NCBI GenBank assembly: GCA_948144175.1
Contig: CANXME010000532.1
Span: 4,512,419-4,576,418, forward strand
Direction of reading: 5' to 3'
DNA from: Closterium sp. NIES-65
Lineage: Eukaryota; Streptophyta; Zygnematophyceae; Desmidiales; Closteriaceae
DNA: 64,000 nt
The translations under genes were made by a program, and so were the position numbers. The notes under the pieces are model-generated. The model made no database searches, was not told where the DNA came from, and saw only the letters and a list, made by a program, of their open reading frames with translations. Positions 12,295 to 24,599 of this stretch are shown in pieces. Positions within the stretch are counted from its first letter, which is position 1, and the number at the start of each line of letters is the position of its first letter.

Positions 12295-13077
12295 TCATCG
12301 AAGCCACCGCCGGAAACGCCCGCCAAGACACCCCCACGTCTCTACTATCAAAGGAGTGAACTGCATGCCCCGGTTGCGTGCAAGCAGAGGCGCGTAATCA
12401 CTCGTTTTGGGACGCTCCCACTCCCTTGCCGCCACACCAATAGAACGACCGCACTGCCCTAGCAGAGATGGAGACAGCAATAGCGGGTCCGCGACGCTGA
12501 TCTCTAGAGCGTGAGCCTCCCCGGCCATTGGTCGTCGCACCGCCATGTCAACCCGCTTCCTCGGCAACACCACACTATCCTCCATCGTCACCACCCCCCC
12601 TGACACCTTAGAGATCCTTGCCACTGCAAATTTCACCTCATCATGCACCCGAGATGGACCGTGCTGGTGCTTGCATCTCAAGGCATGATGCGGGTCTGCT
12701 GGGTCAACATACGATGTGCCACAAACACACCTCCCCGCAACCTGCAGTTGCTGAATTGGGAGCCTGAGCCGTACAGCAGCAGCAATGCCCCACTCTGCCG
12801 CAGTGAATGTGAGATCTGAGTGAGCCGGGACCGCCGAAACCCATGCACCAGCCCCCGGGCCCTGAAGGGATGTGAAACGGGCCAGGGTGGCATCGTCACG
12901 AGCCTGGAGCTCCTCTACAGCCAACTGCCGCTGCCGCGTCTGGAAAAGTCGAAGAGGGGGAGCCGCTGTACACAGAGGTAAGCCCGGCATCTCCTGGCGT
13001 ATAGTCGCTGGCAGCTGCTCAATAGCCTTGGCAAACCAAGGATCAAGAAACTCCGCCCCTCCCGAGGTGGTGAGGTA
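12295..13077 (-). pseudogene. LINE zinc knuckle and restriction-like endonuclease region
   Basis: In frame with the RT ORF across the TAG at 13078-13080. Visible are a Cys/His cluster (CVCGTSYVDPADPHHALRC, then HGPSRVHDEV), a basic stretch KRVDMAV, and ALEISVADP. In R2-type elements a CCHC knuckle followed by a PD-(D/E)XK-like fold nicks the target. The Asp in RVDM and the Glu in ALEIS are candidate metal ligands. The assignment rests on order and motif shape, not a search. Confidence 0.6.
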
Positions 13078-14698
13078 CTATGCAAACATCGCTTCTTCCC
13101 CCGCCACCCCCAACTGTGCAACATCACGCGCGGCCTGCGCCCACCCACAAACATAGGACAGCGGGCTCAAAGAGGCCGCCGCCCTGATCCCAAACCCTCC
13201 GAGTCGCACAGGAAGATGCAGCTGCATGCGCGCGCGCCTAGACCAGTCGGGGTCCTGCTCCCAAGTGCCAGGTGGGAAAAGCTGCTCGAAGCAATCCTCC
13301 AGACAGCTGACCCGATCCCTAAAGGCCTCCACCACATCCGGACGCGGCGGCATAGTCCGGGCCAGGTACATCGGCCGTGCTGAAACTGCAATGGCGAGGA
13401 GATGTGAAGCCATCTCGGGGTGGTCAAGCAGGGGGAGCCATGGCAATGGCCCCTGCAACTGTCGAAGCCGCTCCCGTAATCGGGCCACCTCCCAATCCTC
13501 CTCCCCAATAGGTACGCCCACCACAGTGAGACCCTCCATCCGCTGCATCCCCAATGGCAGTGCCCGCTCCACATCCCCGCCTTCGCGCTCCCAAAACCGG
13601 CACTTGTGCGCCTGCACCTCCAGCCCCACCCACTCCAATCGCTCCCGCAGCACCCCAAAAGCCTCTAAGATCCTAGCCGCTGGTCCCAGGATATAGATAT
13701 CGTCCGCATAACTGAGGAAAAGTATGTCCCTGAACTCTCTAATCACCGACTCCATCACCTGCTGCTGCGTGAACGTAAAGAGAAAAGGGCCGAGCGGATC
13801 CCCCTGCCGCGAACCCCGTGCCGACTCAAGACTCTGTACAAAAGGGCCCGCTCGGAGGTACAGGTCGCTAGATGTCCCGTAGAAAACACGCAAGAATGGG
13901 ATCAACCCCGAGAAAGGCGACTCCCGCAGCCCCTCAAACATCGCATGACGGTGAAAAGAATTGAAGGCGTTCGCGACATCTATCTGCAGCGCACACCAAT
14001 CGGGGTGAGTGGCCAGCGCTGACCGGAAAGAATGAGTAAGAATCTCCACCCCAACCCTGGTGCCCGCTCCCAGGTGGTTGCACGGCAGAAAGTAGGAAGC
14101 CATCGCAGGACAGAGCGAGATGCAAAGAGCTCGAGCAAGGATATGCGGAAGCACCTCCCCAATTGCCACCGGCCGGACGTCGCCGTTAGGCTTGGAAAGC
14201 CCAACTAGGTTGGATGCGGCAAGCCAGGGCCGTGCCCGCTCGGGGACCTGTCCTGCCACCCATTGGTTGAACACCTCCAATAGGTGGAAAAGGCAGGAAG
14301 GTTCAGTGAGGAAGGTGTCGCGCAGATGCTCTGTGACCCACCCAGATGGCCCTGCTGCTGAAGCGCGAGCGGCTGTATGAATGGCTCTGGCCAGGACGCC
14401 GGTCGTCAGTAGAGGCCGCTGAGGAGCATCGACGGTGAAATCACGGACCCACTGTGGTACCTCGCCAGTGCTAGCAGGGTGCTTGTCTTGCAGCGACTGC
14501 ACCATGGCCTCAGACGGTCGCGCCAACTCTCCTGCTGTAAGGCAAGCCAATCCACGACTCCACTCTTCCACTTTACACCGAGCTCGGCAGCGTGACAGGC
14601 GGATGGCATCCGGGTCCTGGTCAGAGCAAGTGTAGGCGAGTGGACGAACTGCTGGCCGCGCCGCTGCCATGGCAGAGTCGAACAGCTCCCGCCACCTC
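13078..14698 (-). pseudogene. LINE reverse transcriptase
   Basis: 530 codons from the first Met at 14670, with homologous coding continuing upstream to 14698 where the TRIM begins. RT blocks in order: GPSGWVTEHL, LSKPNGDVRPVAIGEVLPHILARAL, ALQIDVANAFNS (first Asp), GSRQGDPLGPFLF, then the catalytic FLSYADDIYILGP. The thumb-like remainder reaches 13081. The YADD box and the GSRQGDPLGP motif are those of a non-LTR RT, unlike the YVDD of the copia elements here. It ends at TAG 13078-13080; the endonuclease region continues in the same frame. Confidence 0.88.
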
Positions 14699-14839
14699 TG
14701 TCAGTAGATCTGCACTATGGATGCCCGATTGATCCCGGAGAGGGTTACAGGCGCGTTCGCCTGGGAGGTTATGGGCGCACTGACCTGCTACTGAAACAAG
14801 CCCTTTTATCCCAATGGTCTAGTGGTTGGGATTCTGACA
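14699..14839 (+). repeat. TRIM 5' LTR (141 bp)
   Basis: TGTCAGTAGATC...GATTCTGACA. Contains a consensus Pol III A box, TGGTCTAGTGG, at 14815-14825 near its 3' end. Confidence 0.92.
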
Positions 14840-14880
14840 TGGTATCACAGCGGTCTCGGGTTCGATTCCCGGTGTATGCA
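14808..14880 (+). other. tRNA-Gly-like sequence spanning the TRIM LTR/internal junction
   Basis: A box TGGTCTAGTGG (14815-14825) lies in the LTR and B box GGTTCGATTCC (14859-14869) in the internal region, 33 bases apart, with a T-arm-like stem around TCGGG/CCCGG and a terminal TGCA. The 5' part CCAATGGTCTAGTGGT and the 3' part read like eukaryotic tRNA-Gly, but the middle is the primer-binding site and the acceptor stem does not pair. So it is tRNA-like and not a functional tRNA. Confidence 0.6.
14840..14853 (+). promoter_or_regulatory. TRIM primer-binding site
   Basis: TGGTATCACAGCGG starts at the first base after the LTR. One mismatch (C for G) to TGGTATCAGAGC. Confidence 0.8.
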
Positions 14881-14922
14881 CATGTAGGCCGTTGCCGCTG
14901 TGCTTAGTCCTGGGCCTCTCAG

Positions 14923-14932
14923 TGTGGGGGGG
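14923..14932 (+). promoter_or_regulatory. TRIM polypurine tract
   Basis: G-rich run (TGTGGGGGGG-like) directly before the right LTR. Confidence 0.7.
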
Positions 14933-15073
14933 TGTCAGTAGATCTGCACTGTGGATGCCCGATTGATCCCAGAGAGGGTTACAGGCGCGTTCGCCTGGGG
15001 GGTTATGGGCGCACTGACCCGCTACTGAAACAAGCCCTTTTATTCCAATGGTCTAGTGGCTGGGAATCTGACA
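14933..15073 (+). repeat. TRIM 3' LTR (141 bp)
   Basis: Same length as the left LTR, TGTCAG...CTGACA. It keeps the A box, but LINE coding sequence follows directly, so no B box lies behind it. Confidence 0.92.
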
Positions 15074-15485
15074 ACCTCCCCTCCCAGAACGCCCCCAGCC
15101 GCTCTATTATCAACGCCTTCTGACCTATGCTTGGCTTGGGAGGCACGGCTAGAATGAGGCGCGGAAACGCCAAGAGCAGGAGGGTAGCGGCTTCATCCCC
15201 TGGCCGGCTCTTCATATGCTTCAAGATGCAGCAGAGCGCGTCCAAGACCCCCGCCCGGGCCCGCTGTGGGATCCGGTGCACTGTCCTCCCTCCCACCGCC
15301 TCCACACTGAAAAATGCTTCCCAGTCCCATGAGGTAACCCCGGGCCATGCCTCGTCCCCAAAGTCCCGCGGCGTCGGTCTCTCCTGCGTGTCGGTCTCCA
15401 CCAGGGACGGGATCGAGCCAAGTGCCTGCGCGCGCCTCTCTGCCTCAGCCGCCCTGCATAGCCTCATGTGGTTCGCAACGGCCCC
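15074..15485 (-). pseudogene. LINE segment between zinc finger and RT
   Basis: The open frame from 15467 down contains DAFRG-free linker sequence: WPGVTSWDWEAFF, VHRIPQRARAGVLDALCC, then ALIIERLGAFWEGR at the TRIM edge. Crossing the TRIM continues as WRELFDSAMAAARP in the RT ORF. The frame shift of 2 caused by 380 bp is exactly cancelled on removal. There is no catalytic motif in this part. Confidence 0.75.
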
Positions 15486-16620
15486 TCACGTAGCGAACGT
15501 GTGAAAACACGTGTCACACGGAAAACGAGGGCATAGGAAAGGCGGTATGGGAGGCTCTCCGTCTTCCTCTGGCTCCTCCGCAGTCGCCATGGGAGTATCT
15601 AACTCCAAAAGTCGGCTCCACTCCACCAACTGCTGCTCCAGGTTGTCCATCAACTCCCCCCCTGGCCGCTGCTCTCCTTGGGATCCACCCGTCACACCTG
15701 ACTGCCCACCCGGCCGCTGCGTTCCCTGGGGTGCTCCAGTCACCCCCGGCTGCCCCCCTCGCTGCTGCTCTCCCTGGGGCCCTCTGATCGCCCCCGGCTG
15801 CCCCCCTTGCTGCTGCTCTCTCTGGGATGCTCCGGTCGCCGCCGGCTGCCCCCATCCCTGCTTCTCTCCCTGGGGTGCTTGGGTCACCCTCGGCTGCCCC
15901 CCTGACTGCTGCGCTCCCTGGGGTGCCCCGGCCACCCCTGGCTGCCCCCCTGGCTGCTGCTCTCCCTCGGGTGCTCGGGTCACCCCCGGCTGCCCCCCAG
16001 ACTGCTTCGCTCCTAGGGGTGGTCCGGTCAACCCCGGCTGCTTCCCTGACTGCTTTGCTCCCAAGGGTGCTCCGGTCAACCCCGGCTGCTCCCCTGGCTG
16101 CTTCGCTCCCAGGGGTGCTCCGATCAACACCGGCTGCTCCCCTGACCGCTGCGCTCCCTGGGGTGCTCCGGTCAACCCCGGCTGCCCCCCTGACTGCTGC
16201 GCTCCCTGGGGTACTCCGGTCGACCCCGGCTGCCCCCCTGGCTGCTTCGCTCTCAGGGGTGCCCCGGTCTCCCCCGGCTGCCCCCCTGGCTGCTGCTCTC
16301 CCTGGGGTGCTCCGGTCAACCCCGGCTGCTCCCCTGGCTGCTTCGCTCCCAGGGGTGCTCCGGTCAACCCCGGCTGCTCCCCTGACCGCTGCGCTCCCTG
16401 GGGTGCTCCGGTCAACCCCGGCTGCCCCCCTGACTGCTGCGCTCCCTGGGGTGCTCTGGTCGACCCCGGCTGCCCCCCTGGCTGCTTCGCTCTCTGGGGT
16501 GCCCCAGTGACCCCTGGCTGCCCCCCTGGCTGCTGCTCTCCCTGGAGTGCCCGGGTCGCCCCCGGCTGGCCCCCATCCCGCTGCCCTCCCTGTCGTCGCC
16601 CCCTTAGGCGCCGTGCCCGC
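15486..16620 (-). pseudogene. LINE minisatellite-coded region and CCHC zinc finger
   Basis: From the copia-B edge downward, about 18 imperfect 16-residue units of the type QPGLTGAPQGAQQSGG, then an acidic segment (AEEPEEDGEPPIPP) and a zinc finger. CDTCFHTFAT, a TGA stop (15486-15488), then GAVANHMRLC together give C-x2-C-x13-H-x3-C if the stop is read as one residue. A single nonsense change therefore sits inside the finger. The position, N-terminal of RT, matches the DNA-binding fingers of R2-like elements (inference). Confidence 0.75.
15680..16600. repeat. 48-bp coding minisatellite, copy block 1
   Basis: Unit about CTGCTGCTCTCCCTGGGGTGCTCCGGTC plus 20 bases on the plus strand. Almost all units are 48 bases (16 codons), so the minus frame is kept. 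Separated from block 2 (23640-24160) by the copia-B insertion. Confidence 0.85.
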
Positions 16621-16755
16621 TGTCAGAACATTATAGCTTATATATTTGTGTAGGCTATAGTGGGGTATCCCATAGGGGGTACAACCCAATCAGGGTTTCC
16701 TATATGTACTCACTTCATTCATAGTTCATTCATTCTCGTTCTAGTTTCTTTCACA
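16621..16755 (+). repeat. copia-B 5' LTR (135 bp)
   Basis: TGTCAGAACATTATAGC...TTTCACA. A TATATATTT stretch near 16639-16647 is the likely promoter element. Confidence 0.95.
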
Positions 16756-16769
16756 TGGTATCAGAGCGG
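16756..16769 (+). promoter_or_regulatory. copia-B primer-binding site
   Basis: TGGTATCAGAGCGG directly after the LTR: an exact match to the initiator-Met tRNA complement. Confidence 0.92.
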
Positions 16770-17715
16770 TTACGCTCTCGGCCTGTGGGTACTACTGCTT
16801 CCGCTGCTACATGCTCTGTCGCACGCCCCGTGGCGTGCGACGCATTGCGCGCGGCGATTTGCACTTTGGCGCGCGCCTCGGGGCGCGCGGCCTCTTTCTT
16901 TTCTGGCGCACCGCCCGTCCCGGCCCCTAGCCGCCCGCGCGCCGCCCGTCCCGGCCCCTAACCGTACGTGCGCCGCCCGTCCCGGCCCCTTAGACGCCCG
17001 CGCGCCGCCCGTCCCGGCCCTTAGACGCCCGCGCGCCGCTCGTCCCGGCCCTTAGCCGCCCGTCCCGGCCCTTAGACGCCCGCGCGCCGCCCGTCCTGGC
17101 CCCTAGCCGCCCGCGCGCCGCCCGTCCTGGCCCCTAGCCGCCCGCGCGCCGCCCGTCCCGGCCCTTAGCCGCCCGCGCTCCGCCCGTCCCGACCGCGCGC
17201 CGCTGCTCCAGCCCGTCGACGCCCGTGAGCCGCCCGTCCCGGCCCCACGCCGCTCGTGCGCCGCCCGTCCCGGCCCCGCGCCGTCGTCCCGGCCCCCACT
17301 CCGCCCGTGCGCCGCCCGTCCTGGCCCCACGCCGCCCGTGCGCCGCCCGTTCCGGCAGCGCGCCGCCGTCCCGGCCCCACGCCGCACGTGCACCGCACGT
17401 CCCGGCCCCACGCCGCCCGTGCACCGCGCGTCCCGGCCCCGCACAGCTGCCCCGGCCCGTCACCTGCTGCATTGCCGAGCCGCCCCCCCCACTGAGCCGC
17501 CGAGCAGCCCAGCAGCCGAGCCGTAGCCGAGCCGCTGAGCAGCCCAGCAGCCGAGCGCAGAGCAGCCGAGCCGCCCGAGCCGCCCGAGCCGCCCAAGCCG
17601 CCCGAGCCGCCCGAGCCGCCCGAGCCACCCAAGCCGCCGAGCCGCCGAGCCGCCCGAGTCGCCCGAGCAGCCGAGCCGCCCGGGTCGCCCGAGCCGCCGA
17701 GCCGCAGTTACTGCA
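16770..17715 (+). repeat. copia-B leader with two tandem arrays
   Basis: From 16905 to about 17460, imperfect units of GCCGCCCGTCCCGGCCCC plus spacer (about 28-30 bases). From 17465 to 17710, short GAGCCGCCC units of 9-10 bases. Non-coding on both strands despite several low-complexity ORFs. The GAGCCGCC motif is shared, reverse-complemented, with the copia-A leader; the long GGGGCC array of copia-A is not present here. Confidence 0.85.
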
Positions 17716-20700
17716 GTGCCGCCGTGCCGCCGAGTTGCGAGTCGCCGAGTCGTCGAGCTTGCTCTTCCCACCACTGGTGAGCCCCTGCCTTCCTTACTGC
17801 TGCTAACCTGTACTGCTTCTACTGGCGGCGGCCAGATGCAGCTCCAGCGACGCCCACGCGCGTCTCTCACGCCCCAGCAGCTTCGTGAGTGGTACGCTCA
17901 GAGTAGAGGGTCTCTCAGTTCTGTTCGCTGCTCTTACGTGATTCGCACTGGTGCTCGGACTGGTCAGCCTTGTGGGACGCCTAGTCATACACCGTCCCGC
18001 TGCTTCGCCCGTCTGAACGACGCCTGGCGTACCGAGTTTGGCGACGAGGCTGAGCTCCCCGACTGGGTAGAGTTGCTTAGGCAGAGGGTATATCTATTTG
18101 CTTTTGACTATGATGCTATTCTCACTGCCATGTATGCATTGCCTACTAGTGCTGACCGTGCCGGTCACCTGTGCGTACCGCCTGACCCGGGTATAGAGTC
18201 TGCTGCTCTAGCTGCTGGTGCGGCTGCTGCTCTGGGTGCTAGTGTGTCTCCTGCTCCAGGTACAGGTGCGGCTGCTGCTCTAGGTGCTAGTGAGTCTGCT
18301 TCCTCAGGTGCGGGTGAGTCTGCTCTCTCAGGTACCGCGTCGGCTCCGGCCTCTCACACCTTCACCCTTGACTCGGGGGCTTCCCGCTCCTTCTTTAGAG
18401 ACCGCACCACACTCACGCCGCTTGGTCGGCCAGTTGCAGTCTCTCTGGCAGACCCCTCTGGGGGCCCTGTCCTTGCTCACTTCTCCACTGTCCTCCCGTG
18501 TCCGGCGGCCCCCTCTGGCACCCTGTCTGGTCTTTACCTCCCCTCGTTCTCTACGAACTTGGTGAGTGGTGCTGACCTGCAGGATGCGGGGGTTCACCAG
18601 TTCACTCCTGCGAGTCAGCGGGTGACCCACTGCACAGACGCTCGGACAGGCCGACACCTGGCCACGTTTACTCGTCGGCCGGGGTCGAGCCTGTACACAC
18701 TGACCACTGCGTCTCCTCCAGTTACTGAGTCTGGTAGGGTAGCTGCGTCGGGTCAGGTGTTTGCTGCAGCGTCCAGGTCTGGTCTTGAGTCTGCCCCCTG
18801 TTCGTATCATCTCCTGTCTCACGAGACTCTCCTCTGGCACCACCGCCTTGGTCACCCCTCTCTGCTTTGGCTTAGAGGCATGGCCTCTCGTCTTCTTGTT
18901 TCTGGTCTCCCCCGGTCCCTCCCTCCCCTTCCTCAGGGCCCTGGCCCTACCTGTGTCCCCTGTGTTGAGGGGCGCCAGCGTGCTGCCCCTCCCTCCTCCC
19001 AGTTTCCTCCGACAGAGGCCCCGTTGAAGACGATTCACATGGACGTGTGGGGCCCAGCCCGCGTTCGTGGACAGGGTCACGAGCGCTACTTCCTGCTAGT
19101 TGTTGACGACTACTCGCGTTACACCGCAGTCTTACCCTTGCGCAGCACGCGTGATGTCACTGAGGTGCTGATCGACTGGATCCGCGCAGCTCGTCTCCAG
19201 CTCAGGCAGAGCTTTGGCTCGGACTTTCCTGTTCTGCGTCTACACTCGGACAGAGGCGGAGAGTTTTCCTCTGGCCTTCTGAGAGCCTATTGTCGCGCAC
19301 GGGGCATCCGTCAGACCTTCACGCTTCCGGACTCTCCACAGCAAAATGGGATTGCTGAGCGCCGCATTGGCATGGTCATGGACGTCGCTCGTACGTCTAT
19401 GATGCATGCAGCTGCCCCCCATTTTCTGTGGCCGTTTGCGGTGAGGTACGCGGCGCATCAGATCAACCTTCACCCCAGGGTCTCCAGGCCGGAGACCTCC
19501 CCAGCCTTGCTGTGGACGGGGAAGGTTGGCGATGCGTCGGCGTTCCGGGTCTGGGGATCTCGGGCGTTTGTCCGCGACTTGTCTGCGGACAAACTGTCCC
19601 CTCGTGGTGCTCCTTGCGTCTTCCTGGGGTTCCCCCCTGACGCGCCTGGGTGGCAGTTCTACCACCCCACCTCTTGCCGTGTTCTGTCCTCCCAGGACGT
19701 CACGTTTGACGAGTCGGTCCCCTACTACCGCCTCTTCCCCTACCGCACTCCGTCCCTCCCCCCGCCCCCGCTCTTCCTGGTACCAGGTCCCCCCCAGGTA
19801 GACCCCCTCCCCCCTCAGGGTCCTGCCCCTTCAGGTGTGTCACAGGTAGACGCAGTCGAGCCTGTCGAGGTCACTGGTGACTCTGGTGCTGCTGAGGGTG
19901 CTGAGCCTGGGGGTACTGAGCCTGGGGGTGCTGAGACTGGGGGTGCTACGCCTGGGGGTGCTTTGCCTGGGGGTGCCGGGCCGGGGGGAGCTGAGCCTGG
20001 AGGTGCTTCGCCTGGAGGTTCTCCGGGTGCTTCGTCTCGCAGGGAGCCACTCTCTCCACAGGAGCTGCGCGAGTGGTTTGCTCGGCGCTGGAGCCGTGCT
20101 GCTTGTGCTGGAGGTTCTTCGGCTACTGGGGGTGCTGAGCCTAGGGGTGCTGAGCCTGGGGGTGCTGAGCGTGGGGGTGCTACGCCTGGGGGTGCTGGGC
20201 TTGGGGGTGCTGAGCCTGGGGGTGCTTTGCCTGGGGGTGCTGGACCTGGGGGTGCTGTGCCTGGAGGTGCTCCGCTTGGAGGTTCTCCGGGTGCTTCGTC
20301 TCGCCGGGAGCCAGTCTCTCCACAGGAGCTGCGCGAGTGGTTTGCCCGGCGCTGGAGCCGTGCTGCTTGTGCTGGAGGTTCGTCGGCTACTGAGGGTGCT
20401 GCTGTCGCGGGTCCCGGAGGTGCTCGTCGTGGGAGTACTGGAGCTGCTGGGCCTGCAGGTTCGACTGGAGCTGGTGCTGCTGGGGGTGTTGGCGCTGAGC
20501 CTACCACTCGCGGTCCTGCTGGGGGTGCTCCTGCTGCTGCTGGAGGTTCTGGAGCTGCTGGAGGTGCTGTTGGGGGTTCTGGAGCTGCTGGAGGTGCTGC
20601 TGGAGGTGCTGGAGCTACTGGAGGTGCTGCTGGAGCGGGCACTCCTGCTGGGGGTCCTGGTGCTGTCCCAGCTGTTTCTGGCGTCGCCACGCGGCCTCGA

Positions 20701-20796
20701 CCGTACTTCGTTCCACTCCTGCAGGAGGTTCTTGGTCTTACACCTTCTACTGGTCCTCCTCCTCCTCCCTTAGAGGGTCCACAGCCTGTCCAGTGA
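17716..20796 (+). CDS. copia-B nucleocapsid, protease, integrase and linker
   Basis: 1026 codons; the first 40 lie in leader-like sequence, and Met 41 (17836) may be nearer the true homology start. Residues 72-96 form an unusual knuckle, C-x13-C-x4-H-x4-C. Protease FTLDSGASRSFF is at about 216-227. Integrase: WHHRLGH and CVPC (HHCC), then IHMDVWGP, LHSDRGGEF and QQNGIAERR (D, D, E). The last 300 residues are Gly/Glu/Pro repeats containing two copies of SPQELREWFARRWSRA, a relative of TPQQLREWYAQSR found beside the knuckle. The Gag capsid, seen in copia-A and copia-C, is absent. Ends at TGA 20794-20796, beyond which the same frame continues into RT. Confidence 0.88.
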   Translation: MPPCRRVASRRVVELALPTTGEPLPSLLLLTCTASTGGGQMQLQRRPRASLTPQQLREWYAQSRGSLSSVRCSYVIRTGARTGQPCGTPSHTPSRCFARLNDAWRTEFGDEAELPDWVELLRQRVYLFAFDYDAILTAMYALPTSADRAGHLCVPPDPGIESAALAAGAAAALGASVSPAPGTGAAAALGASESASSGAGESALSGTASAPASHTFTLDSGASRSFFRDRTTLTPLGRPVAVSLADPSGGPVLAHFSTVLPCPAAPSGTLSGLYLPSFSTNLVSGADLQDAGVHQFTPASQRVTHCTDARTGRHLATFTRRPGSSLYTLTTASPPVTESGRVAASGQVFAAASRSGLESAPCSYHLLSHETLLWHHRLGHPSLLWLRGMASRLLVSGLPRSLPPLPQGPGPTCVPCVEGRQRAAPPSSQFPPTEAPLKTIHMDVWGPARVRGQGHERYFLLVVDDYSRYTAVLPLRSTRDVTEVLIDWIRAARLQLRQSFGSDFPVLRLHSDRGGEFSSGLLRAYCRARGIRQTFTLPDSPQQNGIAERRIGMVMDVARTSMMHAAAPHFLWPFAVRYAAHQINLHPRVSRPETSPALLWTGKVGDASAFRVWGSRAFVRDLSADKLSPRGAPCVFLGFPPDAPGWQFYHPTSCRVLSSQDVTFDESVPYYRLFPYRTPSLPPPPLFLVPGPPQVDPLPPQGPAPSGVSQVDAVEPVEVTGDSGAAEGAEPGGTEPGGAETGGATPGGALPGGAGPGGAEPGGASPGGSPGASSRREPLSPQELREWFARRWSRAACAGGSSATGGAEPRGAEPGGAERGGATPGGAGLGGAEPGGALPGGAGPGGAVPGGAPLGGSPGASSRREPVSPQELREWFARRWSRAACAGGSSATEGAAVAGPGGARRGSTGAAGPAGSTGAGAAGGVGAEPTTRGPAGGAPAAAGGSGAAGGAVGGSGAAGGAAGGAGATGGAAGAGTPAGGPGAVPAVSGVATRPRPYFVPLLQEVLGLTPSTGPPPPPLEGPQPVQ

Positions 20797-22959
20797 CAGT
20801 CACAGCTACAACCTGCCTCCCCTTTGCCTGCTCCTTCTCCCTACGCTGGTCCTACTGGAGGTCTTACTGAGCGTCGTGAGCCTGCGTCTCGTCCTGCGTC
20901 GCCTGTTCGTGCTGCGCGCGCTAGTGGTCGCGGTTCGCGCCAACGTCCTCCTCCTGTCCTTGGCACGCACCGGATGTCTCTGCGTCCGTCCATTGCTCCT
21001 CTGCGTGCCCCTTTGCCTTCTCCTCCTGTGTCCTCTCTTCCTGCTCTTGCCGACCCGGAGTCGGACTCTCTTCGTGCTGCCAGTCCTACTGTCACGCGTC
21101 TCCTTGCTACTGCTGTCACTGACCCTTCTTTCGAGTCTACTACTGCGTCTGCCCTTGTTACTGAGCTCGTCGACTTTGCTGCTCGCTGTCACCTAGAATA
21201 CCGTGCGAGTCTTGTCGCTGAGTCTGAGTCTGTCTGTCCTCCGTCCGTCGGGGGTGAGTGTGCCCTTGGCACGGACGTCCTTGAGGACAGGCAGGAGGAG
21301 TTCCAGTGTCTGGCCGCTGCTTCACCTCATCTCGTGTCCGTACTGCTTACCCCTGAGGGAGACCCGGATGCACTTGACATCCCGACTCCGCGCTCTTACG
21401 CGGAGGCGATAGAGGGTCCCTACTCCTCTCAGTGGCAGGCAGCTATGGATGCAGAGATGGCTTCCTGGAAGTCCACAGGCACCTACGTTGACGCTGTCCC
21501 CCCTCCTGGGGCGAACATCGTCAGTGGCATGTGGATTTTCAGGGTGAAGCGGCCGCCGGGTTCTCCGCCTGTCTTCAAGGCGCGTTACGTGGCTCGTGGC
21601 TTTAGTCAGCGGCAGGGAGTTGACTACTTTCAGAACTTCTCCCCTACCCCGAAGATGACCACTCTTCGGGTACTGCTGCACGTTGCTGCTCACCGTGACT
21701 ACGAGCTGCACTCTCTCGACTTCAGCACTGCTTTCTTGCAGGGCAGCTTGCACGAGGAGATCTGGCTGCGCCGCCCACCTGGCTTCACTGGGTCGTTCCC
21801 TCCTGGTACCCAGTGGAGTCTCCGGCGTCTAGTCTACGGTCTCCGCCAGGCGCCACGTGAGTGGCACGACACACTGAGGACTACACTGGCGGCACTTGGG
21901 TTTGCTCCTTCTACTGCCGACCCGTCGCTGTTTCTGCGCACCGACACCTCTCTGCCGCCGTTCTACATCCTCGTGTACGTCGACGACTTGGTCTTTGCCA
22001 CAGCTGACACTGCTGGACTCGCCTACGTGAAGTCCGAGCTGCAGAAGAGACACACGTGCACTGACCTGGGTGAACTGCGCAGCTACCTTGGCTTGCAGAT
22101 CACCCGGGACAGAGCACGCCGCACCATTACCTTGACTCAGTCACACATGGTGCAGCAGGTCCTTCAGCGCTTCGGCTTCACGTACTCCTCGCCTCAGGCC
22201 ACTCCTCTGCCTACTCGCCACTCGCTCTCAGCTCTGCCTTCGGATGAGTCCGTAGAGTCGAGTGGCCCGTATCCAGAGCTTGTTGGCTGCCTCATGTACC
22301 TGATGACCTGCACACGACCTGACCTTGCATACCTTCTTAGCATTCTCGCACGCTATGTTGCTCCTGGGAGACACCGACCAGAGCACATGGCTGCAGCGAA
22401 GAGGGTGTTGCGCTACTTGTGCAGTACGTCGGGCATGGGGCTAGTACTTGGAGGGCGGAGTCCAGTGGTCCTCACTGGGCACGCGCACGCCTCTTGGGCT
22501 GACGACCAGGCTACGCAGCGGTCGTCACAGGGTTACACTTTCAGTCTTGGTTCCGGCTCTGTTTCGTGGCGGGCCACCCGCTCGTCTTCTGTTCTCGGCT
22601 CCAGTTGTGAGGCTGAGATCTACGCCGGGGCTATGGCTGCCCAGGATCTCCGCTGGCTCACCTACCTGCTGACCGACCTTGGAGAGCCGCCTCGTTCTCC
22701 TCCAGTCCTGTACGTAGACAACAAGGCCATGCTGGCCTTGTGTCGAGAGCAGCGACTGGAGCACAGAACAAAGCACATTGCTCTCCGCTACTTTCTTGCT
22801 CGTGAGCTACAGCAGCGTGGACAGTTGCGGCTTGCGTACGTGGCCTCTGAGGCCAACACTGCTGATGTCTTCACCAAGGCACTTGCGCCTTGTGATCATC
22901 AGCGCTTCTGCACTCAGCTGGGTCTTGTGCCTGTCTTGCCTCACTTGCTCACTTCTTGA
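20797..22959 (+). CDS. copia-B reverse transcriptase and RNase H
   Basis: Same frame as the preceding ORF; first ATG at 20824, but this is probably not a real start, since homologous low-complexity linker continues through the stop. RVT_2 features: WQAAMDAEMASW, FKARYVARGFSQ, LDFSTAFLQG, VYGLRQAPREWH and the catalytic ILVYVDDLVFA. RNase H: HASWADD, SSCEAEIYAG, LYVDNKAML and HIALRYFLARE. No other stop or frameshift in about 715 codons. The stop between integrase and RT is most simply a nonsense mutation; programmed readthrough is possible but unsupported. Confidence 0.92.
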   Translation, partial: QSQLQPASPLPAPSPYAGPTGGLTERREPASRPASPVRAARASGRGSRQRPPPVLGTHRMSLRPSIAPLRAPLPSPPVSSLPALADPESDSLRAASPTVTRLLATAVTDPSFESTTASALVTELVDFAARCHLEYRASLVAESESVCPPSVGGECALGTDVLEDRQEEFQCLAAASPHLVSVLLTPEGDPDALDIPTPRSYAEAIEGPYSSQWQAAMDAEMASWKSTGTYVDAVPPPGANIVSGMWIFRVKRPPGSPPVFKARYVARGFSQRQGVDYFQNFSPTPKMTTLRVLLHVAAHRDYELHSLDFSTAFLQGSLHEEIWLRRPPGFTGSFPPGTQWSLRRLVYGLRQAPREWHDTLRTTLAALGFAPSTADPSLFLRTDTSLPPFYILVYVDDLVFATADTAGLAYVKSELQKRHTCTDLGELRSYLGLQITRDRARRTITLTQSHMVQQVLQRFGFTYSSPQATPLPTRHSLSALPSDESVESSGPYPELVGCLMYLMTCTRPDLAYLLSILARYVAPGRHRPEHMAAAKRVLRYLCSTSGMGLVLGGRSPVVLTGHAHASWADDQATQRSSQGYTFSLGSGSVSWRATRSSSVLGSSCEAEIYAGAMAAQDLRWLTYLLTDLGEPPRSPPVLYVDNKAMLALCREQRLEHRTKHIALRYFLARELQQRGQLRLAYVASEANTADVFTKALAPCDHQRFCTQLGLVPVLPHLLTS

Positions 22960-23174
22960 CCTTGCTTGTACTGTCACATATATATACTCTTGCTCTTGCT
23001 TGCTTAGCCTCTTGTATATATATATATACGTGATCTTGCATGTGAACTGGCCTTCTGGCCTTTGAACTTGTGCTCGGAATGTGTGGTGACTTTGTGATCC
23101 ACCCTGAGCTTTGCTTTGCTTTGCTTGACTGGTCTTGTGACCCCTTGTTCTCCCCCACTTTGCCTATGGGGGTG
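22960..23174 (+). other. copia-B 3' untranslated region and polypurine tract
   Basis: TA-rich stretches (TATATATATA near 23017) and GCTTT repeats; ends with the purine-rich CTATGGGGGTG next to the LTR. Confidence 0.7.
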
Positions 23175-23309
23175 TGTCAGAACATTATAGCTTATATATT
23201 CGTGTAGGCTATAGTGGGGTATCCCATAGGGGGTACAACCCAATCAGGGTTTCCTATATGTACTCACTTCATTCATAGTTCATTCATTCTTGTTATAGTT
23301 TCTTTCACA
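23175..23309 (+). repeat. copia-B 3' LTR (135 bp)
   Basis: Same length as the 5' LTR with three substitutions; followed by the CCCGC duplication. Confidence 0.95.
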
Positions 23310-23639
23310 CCCGCGACCCTTCGGCTTGGCCTGTGCCGCCCGGGTTAGTGACCCCCTGCTGATTCTGCACCTGCAACTCCTGCGACTCACTCGTCGGCAA
23401 CCCCTGTTGCACGCTTCCAGGCAAGGGCTGGTTCCCCTCATAACACCCTTGCCGCCCTGCCTGCGACTGGGGTTGATTGTCTGTATGACTCCCCTCCTGC
23501 ATGCATACCGGCAGCTCCTCTCGCGCCTCCTCTTGCGGCTCCTCCATCTCCACCTCCAGCTCCTGCAGCTCCTGCTGCTCCCCGACCCCTTGCTCCACCT
23601 CCATCTCTGCTGCCAATGCTTGTTGACCTCCGGGCAGCT

Positions 23640-24160
23640 CTTGCTGTCCCCCTGCCTGCTGCTCTCCCTGGGGTGCTCCGGGCACCCCCGGTTGCCCTCC
23701 TGCCTGCTGCTCTCCCTGGGGTGCTCCGGGCACCCCTGGCTGCCCTCTTGCCTGCTGCTCTCCCTGGGGTGCTCCAGGCACCCCCGGCTGCCCTCTTGCC
23801 TGCTGCTCTCCTTGGGGTGCTCCGGGCACCCCCGGTTGCCCTCCTGCCTGCTTCTCTCCCTGGGGTGCTCCGGGCACCCTCAGCTGCCCCCCTGCCTGCT
23901 ACTCTCCTGCCTGCTGCTCTCCCTGGGGTGCTACGGGCACCCCCGGCTGCCCTCCTGCCTGCTGCTCTCCCTGGGGTGCTCCGGGCACCCTCAGCTGCCC
24001 CCCTGCCTGCTGCTCTCCCTGGGGTGCTCCGGGCACCCCCGGCTGCCCTCCTGCCTGCTGCTCTCCCTGGGGTGCTCCGGGCACCATCAGCTGCCCCCCT
24101 GCCTGCCGCTCTCCCTGGGGTGCACCGGGTGCCCCCGGCTGCCCCTCTGCCTGCTGTGCG
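23640..24160. repeat. 48-bp coding minisatellite, copy block 2
   Basis: About ten units of CCTGCTGCTCTCCCTGGGGTGCTCCGGGCACC type (plus strand), all close to 48 bases. Same unit as block 1 across copia-B. Confidence 0.85.
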
Positions 24161-24599
24161 GCAGCCCCGCTTCCAATCTGCCCTTGCGATTTGCAGGAAC
24201 GTCGACTCCCGCCTCGGCCCTGTGCCCGGGTTCTGCTCGCTTGGCTTACAGCATCCGAATTCGTGACCTCCCGCTGACCCTGCGCCGGCAGCTCCCGCCA
24301 CCCTCCCGTTTGCAGCTTCTGCCGCTCCGCTCGTGGCATTTCCACGGCTCGTGATAGCTCGGCCATTTCCACGTTTGCCGCTTGCTTCTCCCTCGCCGGC
24401 AGCTGCCCTTCTCCTGGCAGCTCCGGCTGCCCGTTCCTTGGATGCTCCCCTCCACTCGGCAGCGTCCGCTGCCCTTCGATGCGCAGCTGCTGCTGCCCTC
24501 CGCTTTGCAGCTCCTGCTGCCCCCCGGCATGTGACTCCACCTCCATCTCCGTCACCAACGCCTGCTGGCCCCCAGCCTGCAGCCATTGCTGCTCTCCGC

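Follow-up and report, generated by a model that had tools for sequence, protein, structure and literature searches.

A 375-bp TRIM in the genome of Closterium sp. NIES-65 is probably transcribed by RNA polymerase III (Pol III) from a type 2 promoter that straddles the junction between its LTR and its internal region, and mobilised by a Copia element. This reading is drawn from sequence comparison. A narrower proposition, on which we are evenly divided, holds that there is a promoter only where the LTR is followed directly by the internal region: the A box lies in U5, the PBS takes the place of the anticodon arm and the B box lies inside, the R region measures about 10 nt, and solo and 3' LTRs are promoter-dead. 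The element would be a candidate Pol III TRIM in a zygnematophyte, a member of the algal class sister to land plants, with apparently recent insertions. If the split promoter is real, a promoter need not lie wholly within the repeat. An R of about 10 nt would be a very short strand-transfer repeat, and the family would offer a natural case for asking how short R can be.

Anatomy of the element

The element lies in the window, the whole 64-kb stretch of DNA that was analysed (64,000 nucleotides). The first-pass annotation had described a 375-bp TRIM with 141-bp LTRs, a perfect ACCTC duplication, a PBS and a polypurine tract, and direct reading with a script check bears out all four features (table 1). 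It had also placed two tRNA-type boxes 33 bases apart on either side of the PBS, A within the LTR and B a little way into the internal region. Both boxes are where it put them, and the PBS holds its intermediate position in the window copy and across a large family. The PBS is complementary to what we take to be the 3' end of plant initiator tRNA-Met. Two LTRs, a PBS and a polypurine tract in less than about 1000 bp, with no coding capacity, place the element among TRIMs; types of 141 + 93 + 141 and 139 + 69 + 139 bp occur. The two LTRs of the window copy are identical at 134 of 141 positions. This identity of 95.0% is below the family median of 97.9%, so the window copy is older than the median.

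Table 1. Features of the window copy and of the neighbouring Copia element, in window coordinates.
Feature	Position	Strand	Detail
Target-site duplication ACCTC	left 14694-14698, right 15074-15078	.	direct reading and script check
5' LTR, TGTCAG...CTGACA	14699-14839	+	141 bp; 7 mismatches against the 3' LTR
U3 head, variable between subfamilies	14699-14766	+	subfamilies A and B disagree at 18 of 68 columns
Conserved upstream block GGTTATGGGCGCACTGACC	14767-14785	+	subfamilies A and B agree at all 19 columns
CAA triplet; predicted Pol III start at A14798	14797-14799	+	column variability and plant CAA rule
Predicted R region AAGCCCTTTT, 5' copy	14798-14807	+	
Inverted repeat ATCCCAA / TTGGGAT	14808-14814 and 14826-14832 (span 14808-14832)	+	perfect 7-bp repeat with the A box as loop
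A box TGGTCTAGTGG	14815-14825	+	within the last 25 bases of the LTR
PBS TGGTATCACAGC	14840-14851	+	TGGTATCA site; TGGTATCAGAGC in most fetched copies
B box GGTTCGATTCC	14859-14869	+	internal region; 33 bases between A and B boxes
Internal region	14840-14932	+	93 bp, too short for coding
Polypurine tract GTGTGGGGGGG	14922-14932	+	G-rich
3' LTR	14933-15073	+	141 bp; A box at 15049-15059, without a B box after it
TTTT, predicted Pol III terminator	15038-15041	+	would end a 244-nt RNA
Neighbouring Copia element	16621-23309	+	135-bp LTRs at 16621-16755 and 23175-23309; duplication CCCGC; PBS TGGTATCAGAGCGG; integrase and RT domains

A large and recently mobile family

The first-pass annotation had looked to other copies of the LTR and internal region, and these abound. 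A genome search with the whole element took up 1169 candidates, of which 40 were scored. It gave 43 matches. Forty of them, counting the window copy, are 96-100% identical to the query over at least 373 of its 375 bases, and the other three are pieces of 31-50 bases. A pattern of A box, gap, PBS, gap and B box has 2740 exact matches in the genome (1331 + 1409), and its reversed control has none. A one-off element is ruled out by these near-full-length and pattern matches. Two pattern scans against viral and prokaryote collections, where records of the window's own genome may be missing, gave 0 matches, as expected for an alga.

Because the A-PBS-B pattern itself predetermines the A box, along with eight bases of the PBS and the larger part of the B box, a box-blind pattern was run as well, and the fixed columns were excluded from the Fisher test given below. 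Anchored only on TTTTAT, TGGTATCA and TGTRTGCAC, it is blind to both boxes and finds 3356 matches (1623 + 1733; control 0). Among the 100 of these 3356 matches listed, the A box is exact in 81, generic in 87 and shortened in 7; the B box is exact in 80 and generic in 86. Among the 37 parsed copies from the whole-element search, an exact 5' A box is present in 35 and an exact B box in 31. The first-pass annotation had staked the tRNA likeness on second copies of the same architecture that keep both boxes. The refuting case that it set out does not arise: second copies exist, and both generic boxes are kept in 75 of the 100 box-blind matches listed. One or both are missing in 25. The tRNA-type arrangement, with A in the LTR and B inside, is a property of a large family, in which the strict A box is not universal.

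Copies were compared at 110 loci (the window copy and L009-L117). L048-L117 were drawn from the listed A-PBS-B pattern matches, 30 as loci and 40 fetched from the other 70, mostly passing over array neighbours. Parsing as LTR-internal-LTR succeeded at 86 loci; the 24 unparsed loci were left out of conservation counts. Six of these carry three LTR ends and are probably tandem arrays, and others are cut or diverged. Sizes (LTR + internal region) are mostly 141 + 93, 142 + 93 and 138/139 + 69. Shared flanks occur in 22 of the 86 parsed copies, which form 10 groups. At least one pair (L047 and L072) is a single place fetched twice and another (L054 and L055) lies within one array; the other copies with shared flanks are at different places, and these fit the aneuploidy or segmental duplication suggested for NIES-65 (PMC10407611).

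Dropping 12 of the 86 copies leaves 74 distinct insertion sites. A perfect 5-bp duplication flanks 59 of them, 4 of 5 bases agree at seven more, and the two LTRs are identical at 11. Integrase-type target duplication with independent insertions, as in other TRIMs, is thus found here. The perfect duplications and identical LTR pairs indicate that the family has been mobile recently.

A probable tRNA-type promoter across the junction

The A and B boxes are spaced as in type 2 promoters. In the 76 copies with both boxes exact they lie 33-36 bases apart, and the spacing reported for such promoters is 30-40 (PMC7279448). In all 86 parsed copies the best B-box score is internal (9-10 of 10, versus 6-7 of 10 in the 5' LTR). 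A generic pair of boxes appeared in one of 20,000 random elements generated by a first-order Markov model, and once on the two strands of the 64-kb window.

The promoter region is not itself a tRNA. Scanning it with tRNA models, as the first-pass annotation suggested, gave no support for one: ARAGORN predicts 0 tRNA genes in the window, and Rfam gives nothing there at gathering score. With the E limit relaxed to 10 over 14690-15090, no tRNA is among the Rfam matches listed, a list that omits one overlapping, lower-scoring member of a same clan. What does appear are weak matches, two of them to the T arm of tmRNA families over 15 bases each. A tRNA gene or pseudogene is ruled out on these grounds. 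The resemblance of the flanks to eukaryotic tRNA-Gly, put forward in the first-pass annotation, is a putative one. Some likeness to the genome's own tRNA-Glu genes (37 pattern matches) is found in the D-arm part, where 17 of 20 aligned columns are held in common with one gap; the anticodon arm has little in common with them. An RNA-family search of the genome scored 63 of 18,457 candidates, which were assumed to be mostly organellar tRNAs and set aside.

The predicted transcript

The proposed course of transcription and mobilisation has six steps. (i) TFIIIC would bind the A and B boxes across the junction of LTR and internal region. (ii) Pol III would start at A14798 in the CAA triplet, some 17 bases before the A box. 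(iii) It would read through the A box, the PBS, the B box and the internal region, then through U3 of the 3' LTR. (iv) It would stop at the first TTTT of the 3' LTR (15041), releasing a 244-nt RNA. (v) The stretch of about 10 nt, AAGCCCTTTT, at both ends of this RNA would serve as R for strand transfer. (vi) A Copia element would package the RNA, prime with initiator tRNA-Met and insert the product with a 5-bp duplication.

Several consequences would follow. A promoter within the RNA would be inherited by each copy. With the B box outside the LTR, 3' LTRs and solo LTRs carry half a promoter and should be Pol III-silent. If they are, the family can reach thousands of copies without readout into host DNA. 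Since the CAA start and the TTTT stop would lie within 11 nt in the same LTR, the transcript would be one near-exact unit with an R of about 10 nt.

The predicted start follows a plant rule. Arabidopsis tRNA genes are transcribed from CAA triplets that precede them by up to about 10 bases, and a T run terminates (PMC11700998). Taking the first base of the A box as tRNA position 8, the CAA of the element occupies -11 to -9. Across the 86 copies, variability within 14780-14839 is among the highest at columns 14793, 14794 and 14797, as it is at 14838 near the LTR end, and 14798-14807 is nearly invariant. Variable columns just before A14798 are what a U3-R border there would produce; a gap without constraint, lying between two sites, would match equally.

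The predicted stop is kept in both repeats: TTTT is present in 81 of 86 5' LTRs and 80 of 86 3' LTRs. In 78 of the 86 parsed copies the first TTTT after the A box is the tract of the 3' LTR; it comes earlier in two, later in four and is missing in two. The RNAs so predicted are mostly 244, 245 or 218 nt long. The absence of an earlier TTTT is weak evidence and not significant, with 0.86 expected per RNA. A TTTT also stands only 7-10 nt after the proposed start, and Pol III might abort there. The predicted RNA folds no better than shuffled sequences (z 0.17), which rules out a globally structured RNA.

Relationship to known systems

The closest precedent is provided by the Helenus TRIMs of fungi, animals and one plant, whose tRNA-like A and B boxes both lie in the LTR (Kojima 2024, PMC10886601). 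The plant example, from Selaginella (LTR 120, internal region 85), is of similar size to the Closterium element (PMC10886601). The two have in common the A and B boxes, an internal region bounded by a PBS and a polypurine tract, 5-bp duplications (in Helenus, those of plants and fungi) and a link to Copia, as in fungal Helenus (PMC10886601). They differ in that each Helenus LTR, solo LTRs included, would by its description have a whole promoter (PMC10886601), whereas the Closterium LTR has the A box only. The tRNA-derived sequence that defines Helenus includes both boxes within the LTR; in Closterium the B box is internal by best score in every parsed copy. The Closterium TRIM would work like Helenus but falls outside its definition. 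The earlier claim of a new Pol III solution for a miniature LTR element accordingly survives only for the split arrangement, as tRNA-type promoters have a precedent in Helenus (PMC10886601).

It is possible, if somewhat doubtful, that the family is a straightforward Helenus-type element, formed by insertion of a tRNA gene or SINE in a TRIM LTR, with the B box merely outside the LTR and no different mechanism. The shared boxes, the logic of PBS and polypurine tract, the duplications, the Copia link and the size of the Selaginella element all speak for it. Against it stands the low B-box score of the 5' LTR, as Helenus is defined by tRNA-like sequence in that repeat. This account is compatible with the preferred one, transcription by Pol III across the junction.

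A second group with a Pol III promoter is Cassandra, TRIMs reportedly treated by Kalendar et al. in 2008. Like Ajax, Cassandra has a 5S-derived promoter within the LTR (PMC10886601). It resembles the Closterium element, as interpreted here, in being a Pol III TRIM with an internal promoter, a methionine PBS, a start in the 5' LTR, a stop in the 3' LTR and a short R (PMC10886601, PMC10853983). Its R of 18 bp is a precedent for the R of about 10 nt predicted here (PMC10886601). The origin of the promoter, from 5S rRNA, and its place inside the LTR set it apart (PMC10886601, PMC10853983). No 5S-like sequence was found in the LTR of the window copy: Rfam gives no match at gathering score in the window and lists no 5S over 14690-15090 at E up to 10.

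tRNA-derived SINEs are likewise short, non-coding and high in copy number, with a type 2 Pol III promoter, but they lack LTRs, a PBS and a purine tract, and it is non-LTR retrotransposons that mobilise them. In plants and algae, canonical TRIMs (Pol II) share the size, the LTR-internal-LTR plan and the occurrence in tandem arrays; in the excerpted text of PMC4717578 they are not described with a small-RNA promoter. Among the matches listed in a search of openly licensed papers, judged by title and opening of the abstract, none concerned a split LTR/internal promoter or a Closterium TRIM. Neither "retrotransposon" nor "LTR" is used in the main text of the article that presents this series of genomes (PMC10407611), which also describes transcriptomes of six strains.

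Constraint on the proposed promoter and its flanks

Which parts of the element are constrained was assessed by comparing the majority letters of subfamily A (internal region >80 bp, 50 sites) and subfamily B (<80 bp, 24 sites). Columns were counted only where the window copy has a letter, and the 3-nt insertion of subfamily B between PBS and B box is uncounted. Beyond the U3 head and upstream block (table 1), one of 12 columns differs over 14786-14797. From the predicted start to the end of the LTR (14798-14839) none of 42 does. Within the internal region the differences number 1 of 41 over 14840-14880, 31 of 41 over 14881-14921 and 1 of 11 in the purine tract. The sole difference over 14840-14880 falls in the B box stretch, where copies vary between A and T at the free position of the consensus. 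With pattern-fixed columns excluded, the start-to-B-box stretch and the upstream block together differ at 1 of 74 columns versus 19 of 80 in the rest of U3 (Fisher p = 1.7e-5). The A box of the 3' LTR, which lies outside the search pattern, is exact in 43 of 49.

The conserved upstream block spans -31 to -13 of the predicted start and is possibly a TFIIIB/TBP contact. Two rodent Pol III genes have TATA-like boxes at -31/-24 (PMC10137851); the block begins at -31 from the proposed start but is not a TATA box.

Promoter motifs conserved between subfamilies are expected of a TRIMp3, a TRIM with a Pol III promoter. They are conserved between subfamilies A and B, and a third subfamily, C, is the exception. 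Its A-like box, TGGTTAGTGG, is 1 nt shorter. The corresponding LTR end has 238 exact matches in the genome (125 + 113; control 0), and at seven places among the 100 listed of these 238 such ends lie 205-213 bases apart, as in whole elements. Six pairs were fetched (L149-L154) and four gave an LTR solution. Three of the four have target duplications, matching at 5/5, 5/5 and 4/5 bases, with ungapped LTR identities of 0.86, 0.94 and 0.98; the fourth seems to belong to an array. On these three cases subfamily C is apparently older than A and B. Its elements have moved with the shortened box, so the consensus A box is not strictly needed there. Some of subfamily C stands in arrays, with three ends about 207 bases apart on contig C584. 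The first-pass expectation that the boxes be conserved above their flanks agrees with the few differences between A and B from the start to the B box, with the A-like box of subfamily C as an exception.

An ordinary Pol II TRIM is an unlikely account of this pattern. The RNA would then start and be polyadenylated in the LTR, and the tRNA-like stretch would be kept for reverse-transcription priming, packaging and integration signals. Conservation of U5, PBS and purine tract is expected in any case, and that of U5 could reflect integrase, packaging or reverse-transcription signals. TRIMs do exist in plants and algae (PMC4717578), and the mobility of subfamily C with its shortened A box fits this account. 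So does the behaviour of the inverted repeat around the A box, which possibly functions as a U5 hairpin. Counted on 99 of the 100 box-blind matches listed, the stem mostly keeps its pairing: one pair has gone from A-T to G-C in 7 of 99 copies, and another from C-G to T-A in a single copy of the 99. In part these changes reflect inheritance, and the two outermost pairs are uninformative, being fixed by the search anchor and the script's expression. Yet at the inner four pairs 10 cells disrupt the stem. The Pol II account, moreover, leaves aside the tRNA-consensus B box kept beyond the PBS in most of the box-blind matches listed, the tRNA-like spacing of the boxes, and the presence of TTTT and CAA where a Pol III unit would have them. 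By eye, no TATA element is seen in the TRIM U3, unlike the neighbouring Copia LTR.

An origin of the B box from an extended PBS is very improbable. Copying of the primer tRNA would have overrun its normal end point and entered the T arm, and an A box at the LTR end would have been selected afterwards. The B box does closely follow the PBS, and a tRNA T arm partly resembles its own complement; the stretch nevertheless reads as a standard B box and not as a T-arm complement. Chance resemblance within a repeat family is the least credible of all, as short consensus boxes can arise at random but such a pair occurred in only 1 of 20,000 random elements and is common to subfamilies A and B, which differ elsewhere.

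A likely type of Copia helper and a chimeric element

Under the preferred reading, a Pol III transcript mobilised by Copia, the neighbouring Copia element is of interest. It lies 1.5 kb downstream of the TRIM and has in common with it the TGTCAG start, the PBS, the type of purine tract and the 5-bp duplication. Its coding region consists of two ORFs in the same frame, 17539-20796 and 20797-22959, split by a stop codon. The element represents the likely type of helper, though the actual helper may be another element.

One of the 100 box-blind matches listed, with a different LTR end, is a chimera of the two kinds of element (L148, 105-3999, on G000 contig C31). Its positions 105-233 are a Copia LTR, 81% identical to that of the window Copia over 64 columns. 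Positions 234-468 hold a TRIM internal region and one TRIM LTR, at 92% to the window copy. After 468 come an imperfect primer site (TGGTATAGAGCGGG), a leader and a gag-integrase ORF, at 87% to the window Copia over 1428 columns. The PBS position is where both joints lie. Such a structure, of which this is a single case, would result from a template switch if the two RNAs were packaged together, and equally from DNA recombination at the shared site. As one recombinant, the chimera supports the link between Copia and TRIM.

Surroundings in the window

Two adjoining minus-strand ORFs occupy 12295-14700, and the one at 13078-14700, which has a reverse-transcriptase domain (PF00078), reaches the TRIM insertion. 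This interrupted ORF has its best match among Closterium proteins, with 97% identity to a NIES-64 protein over 87% of the query, and Closterium strains have many proteins closely related to it. A 48-bp unit is repeated in arrays at 15558-16673 and 23500-24246, and the units of the two places are related. From 28165 to 64000 the window is a dense nest of another Copia family, with the PBS TGGTATCAGAGCTGCG and large inverted and direct copies at 90-99% identity.
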